Below, one piece after another: positions 1-50,868 of a stretch of DNA of 64,000 bases (position 1 is the first letter of the stretch; every line of letters starts with the position of its first letter). Made by a program: the position numbers and the translations under genes. This DNA comes from Spartobacteria bacterium LR76 (GTDB taxonomy: Bacteria; Verrucomicrobiota; Verrucomicrobiia; Chthoniobacterales; Terrimicrobiaceae). The notes beneath the pieces were generated by a model, which worked only from the letters and a program-made list of their open reading frames with translations, did no database searches and was not told the DNA's origin. The DNA lies in the NCBI GenBank assembly GCA_003054655.1, contig QAYZ01000016.1, positions 1,116,001 through 1,180,000 of the forward strand, given 5' to 3'.

Positions 1-3000
1 GCCACCACTGTCGCGACAGTCATCACCTTGGGACGCAGGCGCAGCATCGCGCCTTCCAGCACGGATTCCTTGAGATCGCTGAGTGAGAAATTCGCCCCCC
101 TCTCCTCCATGCGGCGCTTCAGCGCCTCCTCAAGATAAACGACCATGACAACGCCCGTCTGGATGGCCGTACCAAAGAGCGCGATGTAGCCAATCCATAC
201 CGCGACGCTGAAGTTATAGCCCAGCAGGTACTGGAGTAACACGCCACCCGTGAGAGCGAAGGGCACGGCGAGCAATACGTGCGAGGCTTCCAACGCGGAA
301 CGAAACACGACCGTGAGGAGCATGAAGATGATCAGCAGGACGACCGGGACTATCATCGTCAGGGTACGCTGGGCGCTAAGCTGATTTTCGTATTGCCCGC
401 TCCACTTGATCGTCACCCCCGGCGGGAGCTGGATTTTGTCCGCAATCCTTTGCTGCACTTCCTTGACGAAACCACCCAGGTCGCGTCCTTGGACATTGGT
501 CTGCACGAAAACCCGCAGCAGCCCATCCTCGCTGGCGATCTCGCTGGGACCGGAAGCCCGTACGATCTGCGCCACCTGGCCAAGCGGCACGCTGCCGCCG
601 CCCGGGCGCGGGACGAGGATATTGCCGAGATTCTCAATATCGTCGCGCTCTCCGCGATCCAGTCGGAGCTGAATCGGATACCGCTCGCGCCCTTCAATGG
701 TCGTACTGACATTGACACCGCCGATGCCAATCTCAACCACATCCATCACCTCGCGAATGTTGAGTCCATACCGCGCCATGGCGAACCGGTCGGGGATGAC
801 CTCGACGTACGGCTTGCCTTGAACCCGCGACGCCGCCACGCCGACCGCGCCTGGAATTTTCCGTACGAGTTGCTCCACATGGAAGGCGGTGCGTTGCAGC
901 ACATCGAGATCCGAACCGAGGATCTTGATGCCCACCTGGGCGCGGATTCCCGTGCTGAGCATGAGGATGCGGTTTTCGATAGGCTGGAGGAAGCCGGGAA
1001 CGTAGCCCGGGATAACGCTGAGTTTCTCACTAAGCTCGGCGACGATTTTGTCCTTTGTCATTCCAGCCCGCCATTGCTCCTGCGGCTTGAGCATGATGGT
1101 CGTCTCGATCATCTCAACCGGGGCGGGATCGGTGGCAGACTCGGCACGGCCCAGCTTGCCCGCGGCGGACTCCACCTCCGGAACGGATTTGATCACGCGA
1201 TCCTGCCACGACATCACACGCTTCACCTCGGTCAGCGAAGTACTCGGCAGCAGGACGGGCATAAAAAGCAGGCTGCCCTCCTTGAGCGGAGGCATGAACT
1301 CGCTACCGATCCGCGAGGCGAGAAACAGCGCCCCGACCAGCAACGCGAAGGCAAGCATCAGCACGGTCCTGCCATGATGGAGCGCCCATCCGAGCACCGG
1401 GCGGTACAGCCCCATGAGAAACCGCATGACGATGTTTTCCTTTTCCGCATGAAACGGCCCTCTCACCAGCCATGTGCAGAGCACCGGCACGAGCGTCACG
1501 CCCAGGATGGTCGCGCCGACCATGGCGAAGGTTTTCGTGAAAGCCAGCGGATGGAAGAGCTTCCCCTCCTGCCCGGTCAGCGCGAAGACCGGCAGGAAGG
1601 CGAGGATGATCACCGCCATGGCGAAGAAGATGGGGCGTCCCACCTGATGCGCCGCCGTGCGCGTGACTTCCAGCGTCTCCAGGGCCGTCAGGCGCGAGCC
1701 TTTCCTGCGCTCCGCCTCCTCACAATGGCGCAGGACGTTTTCCGTCATCACGATGCCCGCATCGACCAGCACGCCAATGGCGATGGCGATGCCTGCAAGA
1801 GACATAATGTTTGAGCTAATCCCGAATTCCTTCATCAGGATGAACGAAATCAGGATCGAAATCGGCAGCGGCAGCGTGACGATCAGGATGCTGCGGAAGT
1901 GCCAGAGGAAGATGATATGAGCCAGCGTGACAAGGATGATCTCCTCCACGAGCGCATGCTTGAGCGTGTCGATGGTGCGCTCGATCAATCCACTGCGATC
2001 GTAGAACGGCACGATGCTCACGCCCTTTGGAAGCGACGGAGATATCTGCGCGATCTTCTCCTTCAACCGCTCAATGACGCGCATCGCATTCTCGCCTGTG
2101 CGCATGATGACAATGCCGCCCACGACCTCCCTCCCATCAACATCGAGAGCGCCCCGGCGGAAGTCTCCGCCAAGCGAGACCTCGGCGATATCCTGCAGGG
2201 TGATCGGGAGTCCGTTCACCGTGCGTACGGCAATCTGCTTCAGGTCATCGACGGAATGCACGAGCCCGATGCCGCGCACAACGAACTCCATGCCGTTCTC
2301 CTCCACGACCTTGCCGCCGACATTGAGGTTGCTGTTCGTCAGCGCATCCATGACTTCGCGGAGGCTCACGCCCGCTGCGCGCATCTTGCCGGAATCCGCC
2401 GTCACCTGATACTGGCGCACGAATCCGCCGACGCTCGCCACCTCGGCGACGCCATCGACCGCGGCAAGTTGATAGCGGATAAAGAAATCCTGGGCCGCTC
2501 GCAGGGCACCCAGATCATAGCCGCCATCCGGTGCCTTGGCCGGATCGACCTTGAGGTAATACTGGTAAACCCAGCCGAGGCCGGTGGCGTCAGGACCAAG
2601 GCGCGGCGTCACTCCCGGAGGCAGAAGCTCCTGAAGGAAGCTCAGCCTCTCCAGGACTCGTGTGCGCGCGAAGTAGTTATCGATACTGTCCTCGAAAACC
2701 ACCGTGAGCAGCGAAAAGCCAAACATCGACTGCGCCCGCACCTCCTTCACTCCGGCGAGTCCCTGGAGGTTGGTCGAGAGCGGATAGGTTACCTGATCCT
2801 CAACCTCCTGCGGACTGCGGCCCGCCCAGTCCGCCGTCACGATGACCTGATTTTCACTAAGGTCGGGAATGGCGTCGACCGGCGTGGTCCGCAGGGCGCG
2901 CACGCCCAACGCAATCACGATGAGGACGGCGCAGGCGACGATGAATCGATTGTTCAGCGACCAGTCGATGAGCCAGCCAATCCCGCCGCGAGATTCGCGC

Positions 3001-3008
3001 GTATTCAT
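1..3008 (-). CDS. cusA: CusA-type heavy-metal RND efflux pump, partial at window edge
   Basis: Inner-membrane, proton-driven RND permease that exports metal ions through a tripartite pump with the adaptor encoded just upstream. The frame stays open from the ATG at 3008 to the window edge, about 1002 codons, so only the last few dozen residues of a usual ~1040-residue protein are missing. The start reads [16 protein letters not shown], followed by a first membrane segment and the AIPDLSENQV motif of heavy-metal RND pumps. The TM4 relay reads VDAGIVMTENV with its Asp at residue 416, closer to CusA/SilA (VDAAIVM) than to CzcA (VDGAV). The start overlaps the adaptor stop as ATGA. Copper/silver specificity is inferred from this motif and the linked copper ATPase; zinc or cobalt transport is the main alternative. 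Confidence 0.9.
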   Translation of the reverse strand, partial: MNTRESRGGIGWLIDWSLNNRFIVACAVLIVIALGVRALRTTPVDAIPDLSENQVIVTADWAGRSPQEVEDQVTYPLSTNLQGLAGVKEVRAQSMFGFSLLTVVFEDSIDNYFARTRVLERLSFLQELLPPGVTPRLGPDATGLGWVYQYYLKVDPAKAPDGGYDLGALRAAQDFFIRYQLAAVDGVAEVASVGGFVRQYQVTADSGKMRAAGVSLREVMDALTNSNLNVGGKVVEENGMEFVVRGIGLVHSVDDLKQIAVRTVNGLPITLQDIAEVSLGGDFRRGALDVDGREVVGGIVIMRTGENAMRVIERLKEKIAQISPSLPKGVSIVPFYDRSGLIERTIDTLKHALVEEIILVTLAHIIFLWHFRSILIVTLPLPISILISFILMKEFGISSNIMSLAGIAIAIGVLVDAGIVMTENVLRHCEEAERRKGSRLTALETLEVTRTAAHQVGRPIFFAMAVIILAFLPVFALTGQEGKLFHPLAFTKTFAMVGATILGVTLVPVLCTWLVRGPFHAEKENIVMRFLMGLYRPVLGWALHHGRTVLMLAFALLVGALFLASRIGSEFMPPLKEGSLLFMPVLLPSTSLTEVKRVMSWQDRVIKSVPEVESAAGKLGRAESATDPAPVEMIETTIMLKPQEQWRAGMTKDKIVAELSEKLSVIPGYVPGFLQPIENRILMLSTGIRAQVGIKILGSDLDVLQRTAFHVEQLVRKIPGAVGVAASRVQGKPYVEVIPDRFAMARYGLNIREVMDVVEIGIGGVNVSTTIEGRERYPIQLRLDRGERDDIENLGNILVPRPGGGSVPLGQVAQIVRASGPSEIASEDGLLRVFVQTNVQGRDLGGFVKEVQQRIADKIQLPPGVTIKWSGQYENQLSAQRTLTMIVPVVLLIIFMLLTVVFRSALEASHVLLAVPFALTGGVLLQYLLGYNFSVAVWIGYIALFGTAIQTGVVMVVYLEEALKRRMEERGANFSLSDLKESVLEGAMLRLRPKVMTVATVV

Positions 3009-4638
3009 GGCTTGGCCGGAACGCCGCAACTCAGCATCGCCGCCCCGAGATAAGGGTTACGAGTGTCTGCTCCCGCCTGCACCCAGCGCGCCTTGTTCGG
3101 CGCTCCGGGGAAGCTGCCTCCGGTCATCGGGCACTCCAGTATTTGCACGCCGGGATCCATGCCTGTTTTGGCAACCGCCAGCGCCAGCGTTGAACCTGCC
3201 TGACTCCACGGGAGAAAGGTCTTCCGTACGTCCTCAAGAGTGTTGCCCGCCGGAGCTGACGACACTGCCTGAACCGCCTCGATCTCTGACATTATCGCAT
3301 GCTCGTGCGGGATTGCTTTCGCCAACGAGGGCAAGGATTCTCCTGCCGCGACAGCCTGGGCGGGATTGTCTCCCGCCAGCGCGTCGGAAACCCTGGCCAG
3401 ACCTTGCAGGAAGGCCGCAACCTCGGCTGGCGCCGCCTGTAATGCGACTGGCGGTGACGGTACTGGCGGAGTGTCTCCGCCACGCAGTTGCGCTTCAGCG
3501 TCAATCATGAGGTTGCCATTGGAAACGACCTTGTCCCCGGCCTTCACCCCGGCAAGGATCTCGACCCGATCACCCGCCACCCGTCCCGTTTTCACCGACC
3601 GCTGGATGTATTTGCCGGGAGCCTCCTCCAGATAGACCACCTCCCGGCGTCCATCGCGCAACACCGCCGAGCGAGGCACCACGAGGCGCTCGCCCAGATC
3701 AGCTATCAGGTCGGCCTCGGCGTAGGCCCGATGCGGGAGCAAGCGTCGCAACCCATGCTGATCGCCATCGGCCAGCGGATTCTCCACCTCGATGCGCACC
3801 TTGGTACTGCGAGTCGCAGCGTCAAAATTCGGATCGATGAAAGTCACGACACCAGGAAACTCCCTGCCCGGCACGGTCGGAGTCCGAATGATCGCCTTTT
3901 CGCCGATCCGGATATCCGGCAGGTCGCGTTCATAGACCTCGGCGTGAAACCAGAGTTTCGAAAGGTCACCCATTTCAAACAATGGCTCCCCGGTCTTGAT
4001 GTACTGACCCTGGTAAGCCTTCTTCACCACGACTGTCCCGCTGATCGGCGCAAGGAGGTCGATCATGTAAACGGCCTCGGGAGTCTTGGCGAGACCAGCA
4101 AGTTGCTCCGGGCTGAGTCCATACTGCACGAGCCTCTGGGCGGAGTTTCGCGCCACCGTCTGGTCCCCTCCCCGCATGGCGTTCTGGTATTCCCGGACGA
4201 TGTAGAGCAGCTCCGGGCTGTAGATGGCTGCCAGCGGCTTGCCCTTCTCGATGTACTCGCCGACATGCTGGACATACACCCGGTCGATGCGCCCGTCGTA
4301 AAAGGCGGCGATAACGCGATGAATGTTCTCGTCATCTTCGAGAATGCCGGTGAAACGCAGGTTCTTCGTCATCATCTCGCGCTGTACCGGTGCGGTGGCG
4401 ACACTCAGAGCCGCCACCGAGGAGTCGTGCAGGCTGATCAGGTTTTTATCCCCGTTCATGACATCCTCCCCCTCGTAAACCGGCACAAGCTTCATGCCGC
4501 AGATCGTGCAGTTGCCCGGCTTGTCCGAGGTGATCCATGGATGCATCGGGCTTTGATACATCTTGATCTTGCGCGTCTCCTGCGGGGCCTTGTTACAGGC
4601 CGCCAGCAGTACGGCGCATAAAAGAAGAGTAAGCGTTC

Positions 4639-4642
<4 letters not shown>
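3005..4642 (-). CDS. cusB: CusB-type RND periplasmic adaptor lipoprotein with HMBD and DUF3347 domains
   Basis: Periplasmic adaptor that links the CusA pump to an outer-membrane channel; 545 residues, longer than E. coli CusB because of extra domains. It has a lipoprotein signal with lipobox LAAC (Cys16). At residues 30-54 a heavy-metal-binding module shows [20 protein letters not shown], the same fold type as in the neighbouring ATPase. The barrel-sandwich and beta-barrel adaptor regions follow, and the last ~140 residues look like a DUF3347 domain, with ECPMTGG and [12 protein letters not shown] near the end. It overlaps copA upstream and cusA downstream by four bases each (ATGA). Function is secure at the family level; the metal is inferred. 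Confidence 0.9.
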
Positions 4643-7038
<2,396 letters not shown>

Positions 7039-7114
7039 ATCCTCGTAAGCAGGCGTCCCGGCGCATCAACAAACGCCGGGCACGCAATGATTCAGATTTC
7101 CTTCGGGGGATGGA

Positions 7115-7363
7115 CTAGTGCGTCTTTCCCGCGTTATCGAGCACCTTCAGGTACTTCGCCGGGTTCTTTTCGAACGTGGCTTTGCAGTGCTCACAGCAGA
7201 GCTGAATCTCCCGGCCCTCGTAGGTAAAGACGTAGGGAGCGCCCATGCCGCCGAGCTTTTCGCCGGAAACGAGACAGGTCGTCAGAGGATATGCGGGTTT
7301 GGCATCCGCAGCGTTGAGACTGAGCGGAGCGAGGATCGTTGCGAGTAAGGTCAGAAATTTCAT
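7115..7363 (-). CDS. Small exported YHS/TRASH-like Cys protein of the copper operon
   Basis: An 82-residue protein with a Sec signal peptide (MKFLTLLATILAPLSLNAAD). The mature part has Cys30 in TTCLVSGEKLGG and Cys56, Cys57, Cys60 in LCCEHCKATFEKNP, the spacing expected of a YHS or TRASH-type metal-binding fold. It lies 76 bases before copA on the same strand. A periplasmic copper-binding or copper-delivery role is inferred from the cysteines and the context; no experimental function is known to me. Its start codon lies inside an 11-bp inverted repeat with the end of the upstream gene (see 7360-7454), so its translation may depend on that gene. Confidence 0.7.
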   Translation of the reverse strand: MKFLTLLATILAPLSLNAADAKPAYPLTTCLVSGEKLGGMGAPYVFTYEGREIQLCCEHCKATFEKNPAKYLKVLDNAGKTH

Positions 7364-7454
7364 GTCGTTGTCTTGTGTATGTATTTGGAAATACCGGCAT
7401 TGCCGGGTGGATACAGTTGCGTTCTGCGAGGGATCGCTTCAGGCAACGACATGA
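7360..7454 (-). promoter_or_regulatory. Inverted repeat pairing end of one copper gene with start codon of the next
   Basis: On the minus strand TCATGTCGTTG (7454-7444, last codons of the upstream gene) is perfectly complementary to CAACGACATGA (7370-7360), which contains the ATG of the 82-residue protein. The 73-base loop holds the upstream stop codon and two small palindromes, CCGGCAATGCCGG (7394-7406) and GTATTTCCAAATAC (7381-7394). In mRNA this could mask the start codon until a ribosome finishing the upstream gene opens it. The repeat is seen directly; the switch is inferred. Confidence 0.45.
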
Positions 7455-7861
7455 GGCGGAGCATGAGCGGGCATGCTCCGTTTGAAAACAAGACTCGTCC
7501 AGAGAGACAGTCCGGGTGGACCGGAGGAGTATCCCAGCACAGCAGGAGCTGCGACGAGCTCCGGACGTACAAAAGACAGCATCGGGCCAAAGTCCACCAA
7601 GCCCGCTAGCAAAAAGGCATCCGTGGCATGCAGAGTCGCCGGGACAGGAGCGATCAGCGCCGTACAGCAAGCGGTCGATTCCTGAACGGGAGATTTTTTG
7701 GACTCCGTATTATGAGAGCAACAAACGCGCTGCTCATGGTGCTTGGCGGCGGAATCGATGATCGCAGCCCAGGCGCAGTGATTACTGGCCACCAGCCACG
7801 CCAATCCGAGACAACAAAGCGCCGTCAGCTTGATCAGCCGCGACTGTCGGATTGCGTTCAC
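7439..7861 (-). CDS. Small exported Cys/His-rich protein, first gene of copper operon
   Basis: About 140 residues from a GTG at 7861 preceded by AAGGGAAGG. An ATG at 7939 in the same frame would add 26 residues in front of the signal peptide and seems less likely. The signal segment is LIKLTALCCLGLAWLVASNH, and the mature part has HHEQRVCCSH and STACCTAL, so five or more cysteines plus histidines. The C terminus ends in SMPAHAPPHVVA. This layout recalls the short secreted DUF2946-like proteins near metal pumps, but I do not recognise it with certainty. Position at the head of the operon suggests a periplasmic metal-binding role; this is inference. Confidence 0.5.
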   Translation of the reverse strand: MNAIRQSRLIKLTALCCLGLAWLVASNHCAWAAIIDSAAKHHEQRVCCSHNTESKKSPVQESTACCTALIAPVPATLHATDAFLLAGLVDFGPMLSFVRPELVAAPAVLGYSSGPPGLSLWTSLVFKRSMPAHAPPHVVA

Positions 7862-7974
7862 CCTTCCCTTGTACCTCACCCCGGCATCTTTTGCAACTGA
7901 CGAGAATTTTTGAAGTTCCGCCCTTTCGTCCCGGATCATTTGAAGGTAGGTTTCCCGAGAAACTTTTTCCTCCT

Positions 7975-8412
7975 ATGAAACCGCGTGTGCTCATCGTGGA
8001 CGGTCACAGCATGATTTTTCAATGGCCTGACCTGACTCTCCAGCATGCCAAGCGCGGTGTGGTCGCGCGGGAGACACTGGTCAAGATGCTTACCGGCCTG
8101 CATGACAACAGCGACTGGCACGTCGCAGTGGTCTTCGACGGCGCAGGGGTTAAGGCCTCCGAGGAATCCAAGGGCGATGGCATTCAGGTATTTTACTCCA
8201 AGGCGGACCAGACGGCGGATTCCATCATTGAGCGTCTCACCGCCAAGTATGCGCAGGAATATGATGTCACCGTGGCGACGGATGACATTCTCGAGCGCAC
8301 GACGGTCGAAAGCTTCGGCGCGACCTCCATGTCCGCCCATCAACTGCGCGAGGAGATCGACATTGCCGGGCGGGAGCTCGACCAGCGCCTGAGACAGTTG
8401 CGCCGATCCTGA
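7975..8412 (+). CDS. NYN-domain (YacP-like) putative ribonuclease
   Basis: A 145-residue protein of the YacP/NYN family, a PIN-like fold usually linked to RNA cleavage. It starts KPRVLIVDGHSMIFQW, where the first Asp of the PIN-like acidic centre sits at residue 9. Further acidic segments are VVFDGAG, SKADQTADS and VATDDILERT, as expected of the family. In Bacillus the family member Rae1 cuts mRNA on ribosomes; whether this one does the same is unknown. The ATG at 7975 is chosen because upstream in-frame codons do not look like protein sequence. It is divergent from the copper operon and convergent with tsf, with which it shares a terminator hairpin. Confidence 0.75.
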   Translation: MKPRVLIVDGHSMIFQWPDLTLQHAKRGVVARETLVKMLTGLHDNSDWHVAVVFDGAGVKASEESKGDGIQVFYSKADQTADSIIERLTAKYAQEYDVTVATDDILERTTVESFGATSMSAHQLREEIDIAGRELDQRLRQLRRS

Positions 8413-49734: not shown

Positions 49735-50868
49735 TTATTTCGCCGAATCCTGCCGGGTGGGCAGAGGAGCCGGGGCCTGCCAGAGCGTGGGAGTCACCTT
49801 CTTGCCAGTGACGAGTCCCAACTGCCCCGCCGTAATGATCCGGTCGCCAGCCGAAACGCCCTTGGTCACGACAGCGAAATCACTGCGCCTCTGGCCGAGC
49901 GTCACAGACTGCAGCGTGACGGTATCATCCGCATTGACCTTAAAAACATACGGGCCAGTCTGGCCGACCATCACGCACATCGAGGGGATGGTCACCGCCT
50001 GCTCGACCGTCGTAAGGATGAGACTGACATTGACGAAGAGCCCCGGCCAGAGCAGGGCGTCCGGATTGGCAAACGTTCCCCTGAGGGAAAGCGTCCCCGT
50101 GTCGCTGGCCACACTGTTGTTAATAAAGGTCAGCTTGCCGGGAATGACTTTGTCCGGCGCTCCCGGGATGGTCACCTCAATGGGAAGCTCCCCGTTGGTG
50201 AAATACTTTCGGATCGTGTTGAAGTCGTTTTCCGAAACGGTGAAATCAACATAGATCGGGTCGATCGTCTGGATATTGATCAACTGCGTCTGGCTGGCGG
50301 TGACGAGGTTCCCGGCATCCACCATGTAAATGCCAGCCTTGCCGGTAATCGGTGATTTGATGGTGCAATACCCGAGATTGATCTGAGCGTTGGCCAGTTG
50401 CCCCTGGGCCGTCAATACGCTGCCCTGCGCCTGGAGCTGATTGGCTTCGGCACTCTGGAGGTCGGCCAGGTCGATGGTCTTCGTTTTATAAAGCTGCTGT
50501 TGGCGCTGCAGCGTGACATCGGCATTGGCCAACTGGGCCTGGGCGGAATCCAGGCTGCCCTGGGCTTCCTGCACTGCTGCCTTGAAAGGCGCAGGATCGA
50601 TCTCTGCGATGAGGTCTCCTTCCTTCACCAGCGCCCCCTGCTGCACGGCAAAACGGGTCAAGGTTCCCGTCACCTGCGCCTGGAGCGTCACGTCGGCGAC
50701 CGTGACGCAATTTCCGAACGTGTTGATCGTGAGCGGCACATTCTGCTGCTCGGCCACCGCATAGGTCGCAGGCGGCGTAGGCACGGTCGCCGAGGGCTTG
50801 GGGCCGCAACCAGCCAGCCCCATGATGGTCAGCGCCGCAGCAATCGTCCTTGTCTCCCAACAGATCAT
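49735..50868 (-). CDS. RND periplasmic adaptor lipoprotein (second pair)
   Basis: A 377-residue membrane-fusion protein with lipobox LAGC (Cys21). Barrel-sandwich halves are VTLQAQVTGTLTRFAVQQGA and YCTIKSPITGKAGIYMVDAG, separated by a long coiled-coil hairpin with QQQLYKTKTIDLADLQSAEA. The beta-barrel and membrane-proximal parts follow. It shares QLYKTK and AQINL.YCTI with the other adaptor in this operon, so the two are related copies. It starts one base after the upstream pump's stop. Confidence 0.92.
   Translation of the reverse strand: MICWETRTIAAALTIMGLAGCGPKPSATVPTPPATYAVAEQQNVPLTINTFGNCVTVADVTLQAQVTGTLTRFAVQQGALVKEGDLIAEIDPAPFKAAVQEAQGSLDSAQAQLANADVTLQRQQQLYKTKTIDLADLQSAEANQLQAQGSVLTAQGQLANAQINLGYCTIKSPITGKAGIYMVDAGNLVTASQTQLINIQTIDPIYVDFTVSENDFNTIRKYFTNGELPIEVTIPGAPDKVIPGKLTFINNSVASDTGTLSLRGTFANPDALLWPGLFVNVSLILTTVEQAVTIPSMCVMVGQTGPYVFKVNADDTVTLQSVTLGQRRSDFAVVTKGVSAGDRIITAGQLGLVTGKKVTPTLWQAPAPLPTRQDSAK

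Follow-up and report, generated by a model that had tools for sequence, protein, structure and literature searches.

A small gene for a cysteine-rich protein, a gene for a YHS-domain protein, and a series of copper-efflux genes follow one another on the minus strand of the window, the 64,000-nucleotide stretch of the Spartobacteria bacterium LR76 genome that was analysed. The small upstream gene (7439-7858) encodes 139 amino acids ending in AHAPPHVVA before the stop, if translation starts at the GTG codon indicated by the family alignment. After a spacing of 75 nt comes the gene for an 82-amino-acid protein (7115-7363), which we designated a YHS-domain protein from its match to Pfam YHS (E value of 2.1e-6; 28.1 bits versus the curated cut-off of 30.3). 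The next gene in the same direction (4639-7038) encodes a copper-type P1B ATPase (TIGR01511, 589.6 bits; cut-off, 397), and behind it are genes for a CusB-like RND metal efflux periplasmic adaptor (3005-4642; TIGR01730, 120.4 bits; cut-off, 94.9) and a CusA/CzcA-type RND permease that is cut by the window edge (3-3029; TIGR00914, 1063.9 bits; cut-off, 701.45). Scans of positions 7000 to 8100 returned no sigma-70 promoter-like and no terminator-like sequences, and no Rfam covariance model matched this segment at E values up to 1.

The sequence TCATGTCGTTG (7360-7370) and the segment 7444-7454 are exact reverse complements of each other, giving a perfect 11-bp stem in minus-strand RNA. The 5' arm (7444-7454) falls within the final codons of the upstream gene, and the 3' arm (7360-7370) takes in the end of the YHS leader and the start codon. 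In the mRNA, CAT GTC GTT G and the last base of the preceding proline codon pair with the leader end, the ATG, and one further base. That proline codon is the second of the two (CCG CCT; 7454-7459) in the HAPP motif of the upstream protein, and the 5' arm begins with its last base. The 73-nt loop (7371-7443) includes the upstream stop codon TGA (7439-7441) and two small hairpins. One, GCGA-UCCC-UCGC (7426-7437), is just 3' of the stop and is invariant in three congeneric genomes, and the other, CCGGC-AAU-GCCGG (7394-7406), can by eye still fold in two congeneric genomes. A perfect 11-bp repeat joining the last codons of one gene to the start codon of the next, with a 73-base loop holding the upstream stop and two palindromes, had been predicted, and this geometry was confirmed. 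No Shine-Dalgarno sequence is evident by eye in the YHS leader. A strong 9-bp hairpin is also found inside the upstream gene (7457-7480), just ahead of the proline codons and the 5' arm; by eye it has mismatches in both congeneric genomes.

RNA folding was one of the checks proposed with the original prediction. The stem is contained in the predicted fold of the minus-strand RNA (minimum free energy of -29.9; z, -1.9), with 8 of 200 shuffled sequences folding equally well, and also in the fold of an extended segment that includes another hairpin (z, -3.9), which none of 200 shuffles equaled. The YHS ATG has a pairing probability of about 1 (printed as 1.00) in the folds of all three congeneric junctions. 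The stem, its position, and its predicted folding are in this sense established computationally.

The upstream protein family and its closest known counterparts

The family of the upstream protein is concentrated in one order. Places belonging to it were found in 34 of 97 genomes of relatives, 37 of 384 genomes in a class sample, and 92 of 213 genomes in an order sample, and in 3 of 288 genomes in a phylum-wide sample, all three from the order of the window genome. The motifs NHC, CC, and CC and a C-terminal PP are common to 11 aligned members, and the invariant NHC, CC, and CC are a candidate metal-binding motif. Two prolines in succession occur within the last 19 residues in 93 of the 94 family genes at the junctions analysed below. 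The C-terminal core is HAPP in 76 of these members, NAPP in 6, MAPP in 3, RAPP in 1, and something else in 7, with none in 1; three residues follow PP in 62 members and four in 21. The window protein ends in APPHVVA. A predicted model of it, low in overall confidence (59.9), has two N-terminal helices, with pLDDT block means of 78 to 96 over the first 40 residues.

The family resembles CutF and CruR, which are nascent chains that sense copper. In the CutF-cutO system of Rhodobacter capsulatus, as described in the available part of the source, a stem shields the cutO ribosome-binding site, a copper-dependent delay at the C-terminal prolines of CutF is proposed to open that stem, and expression of cutO requires translation of cutF (PMC9973294). 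Like the CutF described there, the window protein is a small cysteine-containing protein with C-terminal prolines, encoded directly upstream of a copper gene, and RNA structure is predicted here over the downstream start region. Unlike CutF, it has no match to DUF2946, and its cysteines are arranged as NHC, CC, and CC rather than in the CxxxC pattern given for CutF. The 5' arm is within the last codons here, whereas the same text places the CutF stem-loop between cutF and cutO (PMC9973294).

The window protein matches no Pfam model. DUF2946 (PF11162) is absent from its hits at E values up to 1 and from those of 11 aligned relatives at E values up to 10, a search limited by HMMER filters that drop most matches above an E value of about 0.1. 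The DUF2946 model had no match in the window genome at E values up to 0.1, and none of the DUF2946 places listed for 58 genomes coincides with a place of the upstream family. By these searches the protein lies outside DUF2946. It agrees in part with the published rules for CutF-like proteins (PMC9973294): at 139 amino acids from the GTG start it falls below the limit of 150 residues. The rules also ask for an N-terminal signal peptide, and the predicted model has its two helices in that region.

CruR of Bordetella pertussis is described, in the part of the source available, as a DUF2946 protein with a RAPP motif that acts through Rho-dependent termination (PMC9426467). The end motif of the window protein is HAPP rather than the RAPP of CruR, and it thus lacks the Arg-Ala/Gly-Pro-Pro core of RAPP/RGPP arrest peptides. 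Unlike the lock proposed here, the CruR account in that text does not involve hiding of a downstream start. No publication on the upstream family was found in a search whose reach stopped short of many subscription journals and supplements.

Rarity and conservation of the stem

The original prediction put the odds of an 11-base match in such a short segment at about one in a thousand. Over the whole window, rarity by itself was rejected as an argument, as 11-bp repeats with loops of 20 to 100 nt are at chance level, with 2 observed and about 2.3 expected from six Markov sequences (1, 3, 3, 5, 2, and 0 repeats). At gene junctions the claim of rarity stands. Among 100 ordinary junctions (gaps of 32 to 200 nt) taken from 464 kb of the window genome, pairing between the gene end and the next leader never reached 8 bp and was 7 bp in 5. 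Extrapolation from these 100 junctions gives odds of a few in 10,000 for such a stem at one junction, close to the one in a thousand of the original prediction. The junction studied here is absent among the 100 printed, presumably because the simple gene finder missed the upstream gene. The window also holds another perfect inverted repeat of 12 bp (50693-50704 and 50782-50793; loop, 77 nt).

Three congeneric genomes (that of the window, G001, and G002) are about 90 to 92% identical at the locus and have stems of 11, 10, and 11 bp. The sole arm change within the genus is at the outermost base of the 5' arm in one genome. A 35-nt block (7419-7453) that takes in 7444-7453 of the 5' arm, the stop, and the small hairpin is invariant in the three genomes. 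On its own this block is modest evidence because there are other invariant runs nearby, two of them at gene starts. A 49-nt invariant run is also present at the 3' end of the YHS gene (7116-7164). A second copy of the upstream gene family in G001 could not be used as a junction because it is at a contig end, and a pattern match with 3 mismatches in a genome of the same family (G023, L034) was judged from its surroundings to be an unrelated chance match. No compensatory changes were found within the genus, where, in three genomes, the arms hardly vary. The conservation check proposed with the original prediction was accordingly uninformative at this level, and because the arms are nearly invariant in the genus the compensatory test was taken from other genera, where it came out in favor of the stem; a lack of compensatory variation would, by the original prediction, have refuted the switch.

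Another possibility is that this region encodes a further gene. A 30-residue frame (7360-7452, minus strand) opens with an ATG inside the 5' arm and closes with a TGA that overlaps the YHS start as ATGA, and if real it could couple both neighbors. The frame is open and of equal length in the three genomes, and its first 11 codons are invariant. However, its variable columns are distributed over the codon positions as 8/2/5, unlike the 12/10/65 of the upstream gene and the 6/2/27 of the YHS gene in the same three genomes. The frame was rejected as a coding gene on these counts, and we consider a real coupling gene here extremely improbable.

Pairing of gene ends with leaders across genera

To compare junctions of other genera, the pairing of each gene end with its own next leader was set by permutation against pairing with the leaders of other junctions, a swap of partners that preserves composition and coding content. 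Beside the loci from family searches, 56 extra stretches were added (20, 20, and 16); the order-search places G046, G469, G479, and G451:C170 and six weaker class-level places were left out. This gave 94 junctions, with 7 others dropped for a missing next start or missing sequence (repeats possibly counted), and with exact duplicates and profile matches short of the C-terminal part dropped uncounted. Setting aside three junctions with spacers below 32 nt left 91, removal of near copies left 73, and removal of the window's own genus left 72. Next starts were assigned mostly automatically, as the first ATG opening at least 70 codons, or 45 at a sequence end, and some may be wrong.

Own partners paired better than swapped ones. 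For the 72 dereplicated junctions the helix score was 962, versus 832.7 ± 19.6 with swapped partners, and the longest stem was 358, versus 304.6 ± 7.7; none of 10,000 permutations was as good in either measure, in tests that do not remove the descent that the junctions share. A perfect stem of at least 7 bp was present in 12 of the 72 own pairings and in 132 of 5,112 swapped pairings, leaving 60 junctions without one. The excess was found both for YHS junctions alone (n = 13; P printed as 0.0000 for the score and 0.0017 for the longest stem) and for junctions where the next gene is of another kind (n = 58; P of 0.0002 and 0.0000 as printed). A smaller set of 32 junctions, again leaving out the window's genus, gave a longest-stem sum of 180, versus 143.6 ± 5.5, with none of 5,000 permutations as good. 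In ten YHS junctions taken at genus level or below, also without the own genus, the longest-stem sum (P = 0.005) and the energy (P = 0.002) were significant and the count of stems of at least 8 bp was not (P = 0.13). The 100 ordinary junctions of the window genome had no own-partner excess (P of 0.63 and 0.95).

The excess differed between spacer classes. It was weak for spacers above 100 nt (n = 47; P of 0.011 and 0.006), and for spacers of 60 to 100 nt (n = 18), a class picked after the helices were seen, the score reached a z of 7.2, or 5.6 without the two best junctions. Helices scoring at least 16 were present in 11 of these 18 junctions, versus 30 of 306 swapped pairings. The 72-junction test is independent of the choice of this class.

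Shifted segments served as controls. Controls that put the next gene's body in the leader's place had little or no excess in any of the larger sets. In the 72-junction set, pairing of gene ends with next-gene bodies gave P values of 0.52 and 0.13 for the score and 0.51 and 0.038 for the longest stem, and the upstream segment -60 to -33 was raised against the leader (P of 0.005 for the score and 0.0002 for the longest stem), not clearly so in the YHS-type subset (P of 0.49 and 0.057). In the 32-junction set, the segment -69 to -33 was raised for the longest stem (P = 0.01; energy, P = 0.13), and the other shifted windows, of seven controls in all, gave P values of 0.42 to 0.95. Eight controls in the 60- to 100-nt class had z values of -0.1 to 1.8, with all four upstream ones mildly positive (1.0 to 1.8). 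As upstream controls were raised, part of the pairing signal may be diffuse.

Six junctions (that of the window, L125, L103, L009, L012, and L232) illustrate the anatomy of the stem. They come from five genomes and three genera, L103 and L232 being from the same genome, and they were picked for pairing, a pick of which the permutation tests are free. All six share the end point of the perfect 5' arm, which is the first base of the last sense codon; their 3' arms either span the next ATG or stop no more than about 10 nt short of it. Columns -12 to -6 contain Watson-Crick pairs only, with two or three pair types per column, and all 7 columns have a double change. Elsewhere the stem is 10 bp (L247), takes in the stop codon (12 bp in L111 and 8 bp in L104), or has a shifted register and one mismatch (L021). 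No perfect stem of at least 7 bp is present in L006, L007, L008, and L010, which belong to another genus of the same family, or in L017 and L026. Among the folds of 7 dereplicated short-spacer YHS junctions, including that of the window, 6 have a leader base paired with the gene end at a probability of at least 0.90; the fold of L010 has no leader base paired in this way. The helix found by search in L232 is nearly absent in its fold (0.06).

Judged by these comparisons, both arms change together across genera, a result that is likewise computational. One alternative is chance complementarity between two separately constrained stretches, the C-terminal codons and an A/C-rich leader before the ATG. 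The conserved C-terminal codons are often T/G-rich, as in TTT GTT GCC TGA, swapped YHS-type partners match fairly often (17 of 182 with at least 7 bp), and both the near invariance of the arms in the own genus and the raised upstream controls would fit this explanation. However, own partners clearly beat swapped ones of the same composition, and the six selected junctions have double changes in every column. Chance complementarity is therefore quite improbable.

Hairpins 3' of the stop are common in the upstream family, and in another family of the order several members carry, instead of the long stem, a hairpin whose start coincides with the stop codon. In L105, L102, and L017, recurring hairpins begin at or next to the TAA that closes the small gene, for example CTAACGATC...GATCGTTAG in L105; by their letters they resemble attC ends. 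The common hairpins raise the possibility that the target of the structure is not the YHS start but transcription or mRNA stability, by way of Rho access, attenuation, or processing, and CruR, by the available account, does act through Rho (PMC9426467). However, the excess in the 60- to 100-nt class sits at the leader beside the ATG, and the intergenic segment -56 to -25 has none (z, -0.1), which makes an effect on transcription or stability very improbable.

A proposed translational lock

We favor, with some reservation, the interpretation that the stem is a CutF-like translational lock on the YHS gene, opened by a ribosome paused on a nascent-chain sensor. In the resting state the end of the upstream gene would pair with the YHS leader and ATG and hide them. 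The small cysteine-rich protein with its N-terminal helices would act as the nascent-chain sensor, and a ribosome paused at its C-terminal HAPP would cover the 5' arm and so free the downstream start. The lock may extend by coupling to the copper-efflux genes behind the YHS gene. We infer that hiding the start lowers expression, that ribosomes pause at HAPP, and that the pause responds to a metal, probably copper; the direction of the response is of the same standing. The joint change of the arms, as read from sequence comparison, supports the dependence of the second protein on translation of the first that the original prediction proposed.

In the SecM-secA system, a ribosome that pauses on reaching the end of the first gene opens up RNA structure concealing the start of the second. 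SecM senses secretion, and its arrest end is RAGP. By described mechanism alone, the opening of a start-hiding structure by a paused ribosome proposed here is like that of SecM-secA, which is discussed alongside CutF in the available part of its description (PMC9973294).

The position of the prolines suggests control by ribosome pausing, not mere passage, as the C-terminal Pro-Pro of this CutF/CruR-like protein is directly before the 5' arm, a feature that the original prediction did not include. Numbered backward from the last base of the stop codon, the second proline codon of HAPP is at -18 to -16 and the 5' arm at -16 to -6. The leading edge of a ribosome usually lies 15 to 16 nt ahead of its P site. 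In RAPP-type arrest, according to the part of the source available, the P site holds the first proline and the A site the second (PMC12992588). Held in this way at HAPP, a ribosome would extend to about -6, where the 5' arm ends.

Plain translational coupling, in which a finishing ribosome opens the stem and fixes the ratio of the two proteins with neither arrest nor sensing, would account for the same covariation. A terminating ribosome should likewise cover the 5' arm, and only 1 of the 94 family members has the Arg of RAPP. However, plain coupling does not explain why a C-terminal PP is nearly universal in the family, or its place directly before the arm in the window, or the likeness to CutF and CruR. 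We regard it as rather unlikely and prefer pausing, mainly because the reach of the ribosome matches the end of the 5' arm.

Arrest at HAPP needs its own proof, because, as reported in the available part of the source, no other residue can replace the Arg of RAPP in ApcA, ApdA, and ApdP (PMC12992588). A further, tentative possibility, which we hold with less confidence than the lock, is that HAPP marks a new class of Arg-independent, metal-gated arrest peptides in Verrucomicrobiota, in which the arm fits the footprint of the arrested ribosome and one paused ribosome opens the whole operon.

According to the available parts of the sources, nascent-chain copper control has been tested in proteobacteria, with CutF (PMC9973294) and CruR (PMC9426467). 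The system described here offers a precise and easily mutated target, consisting of two arms, two prolines, and a few cysteines. A separate family in a different phylum, carrying an end motif of its own and a lock backed by covariation, would suggest that nascent-chain metal sensing arose or spread more widely.
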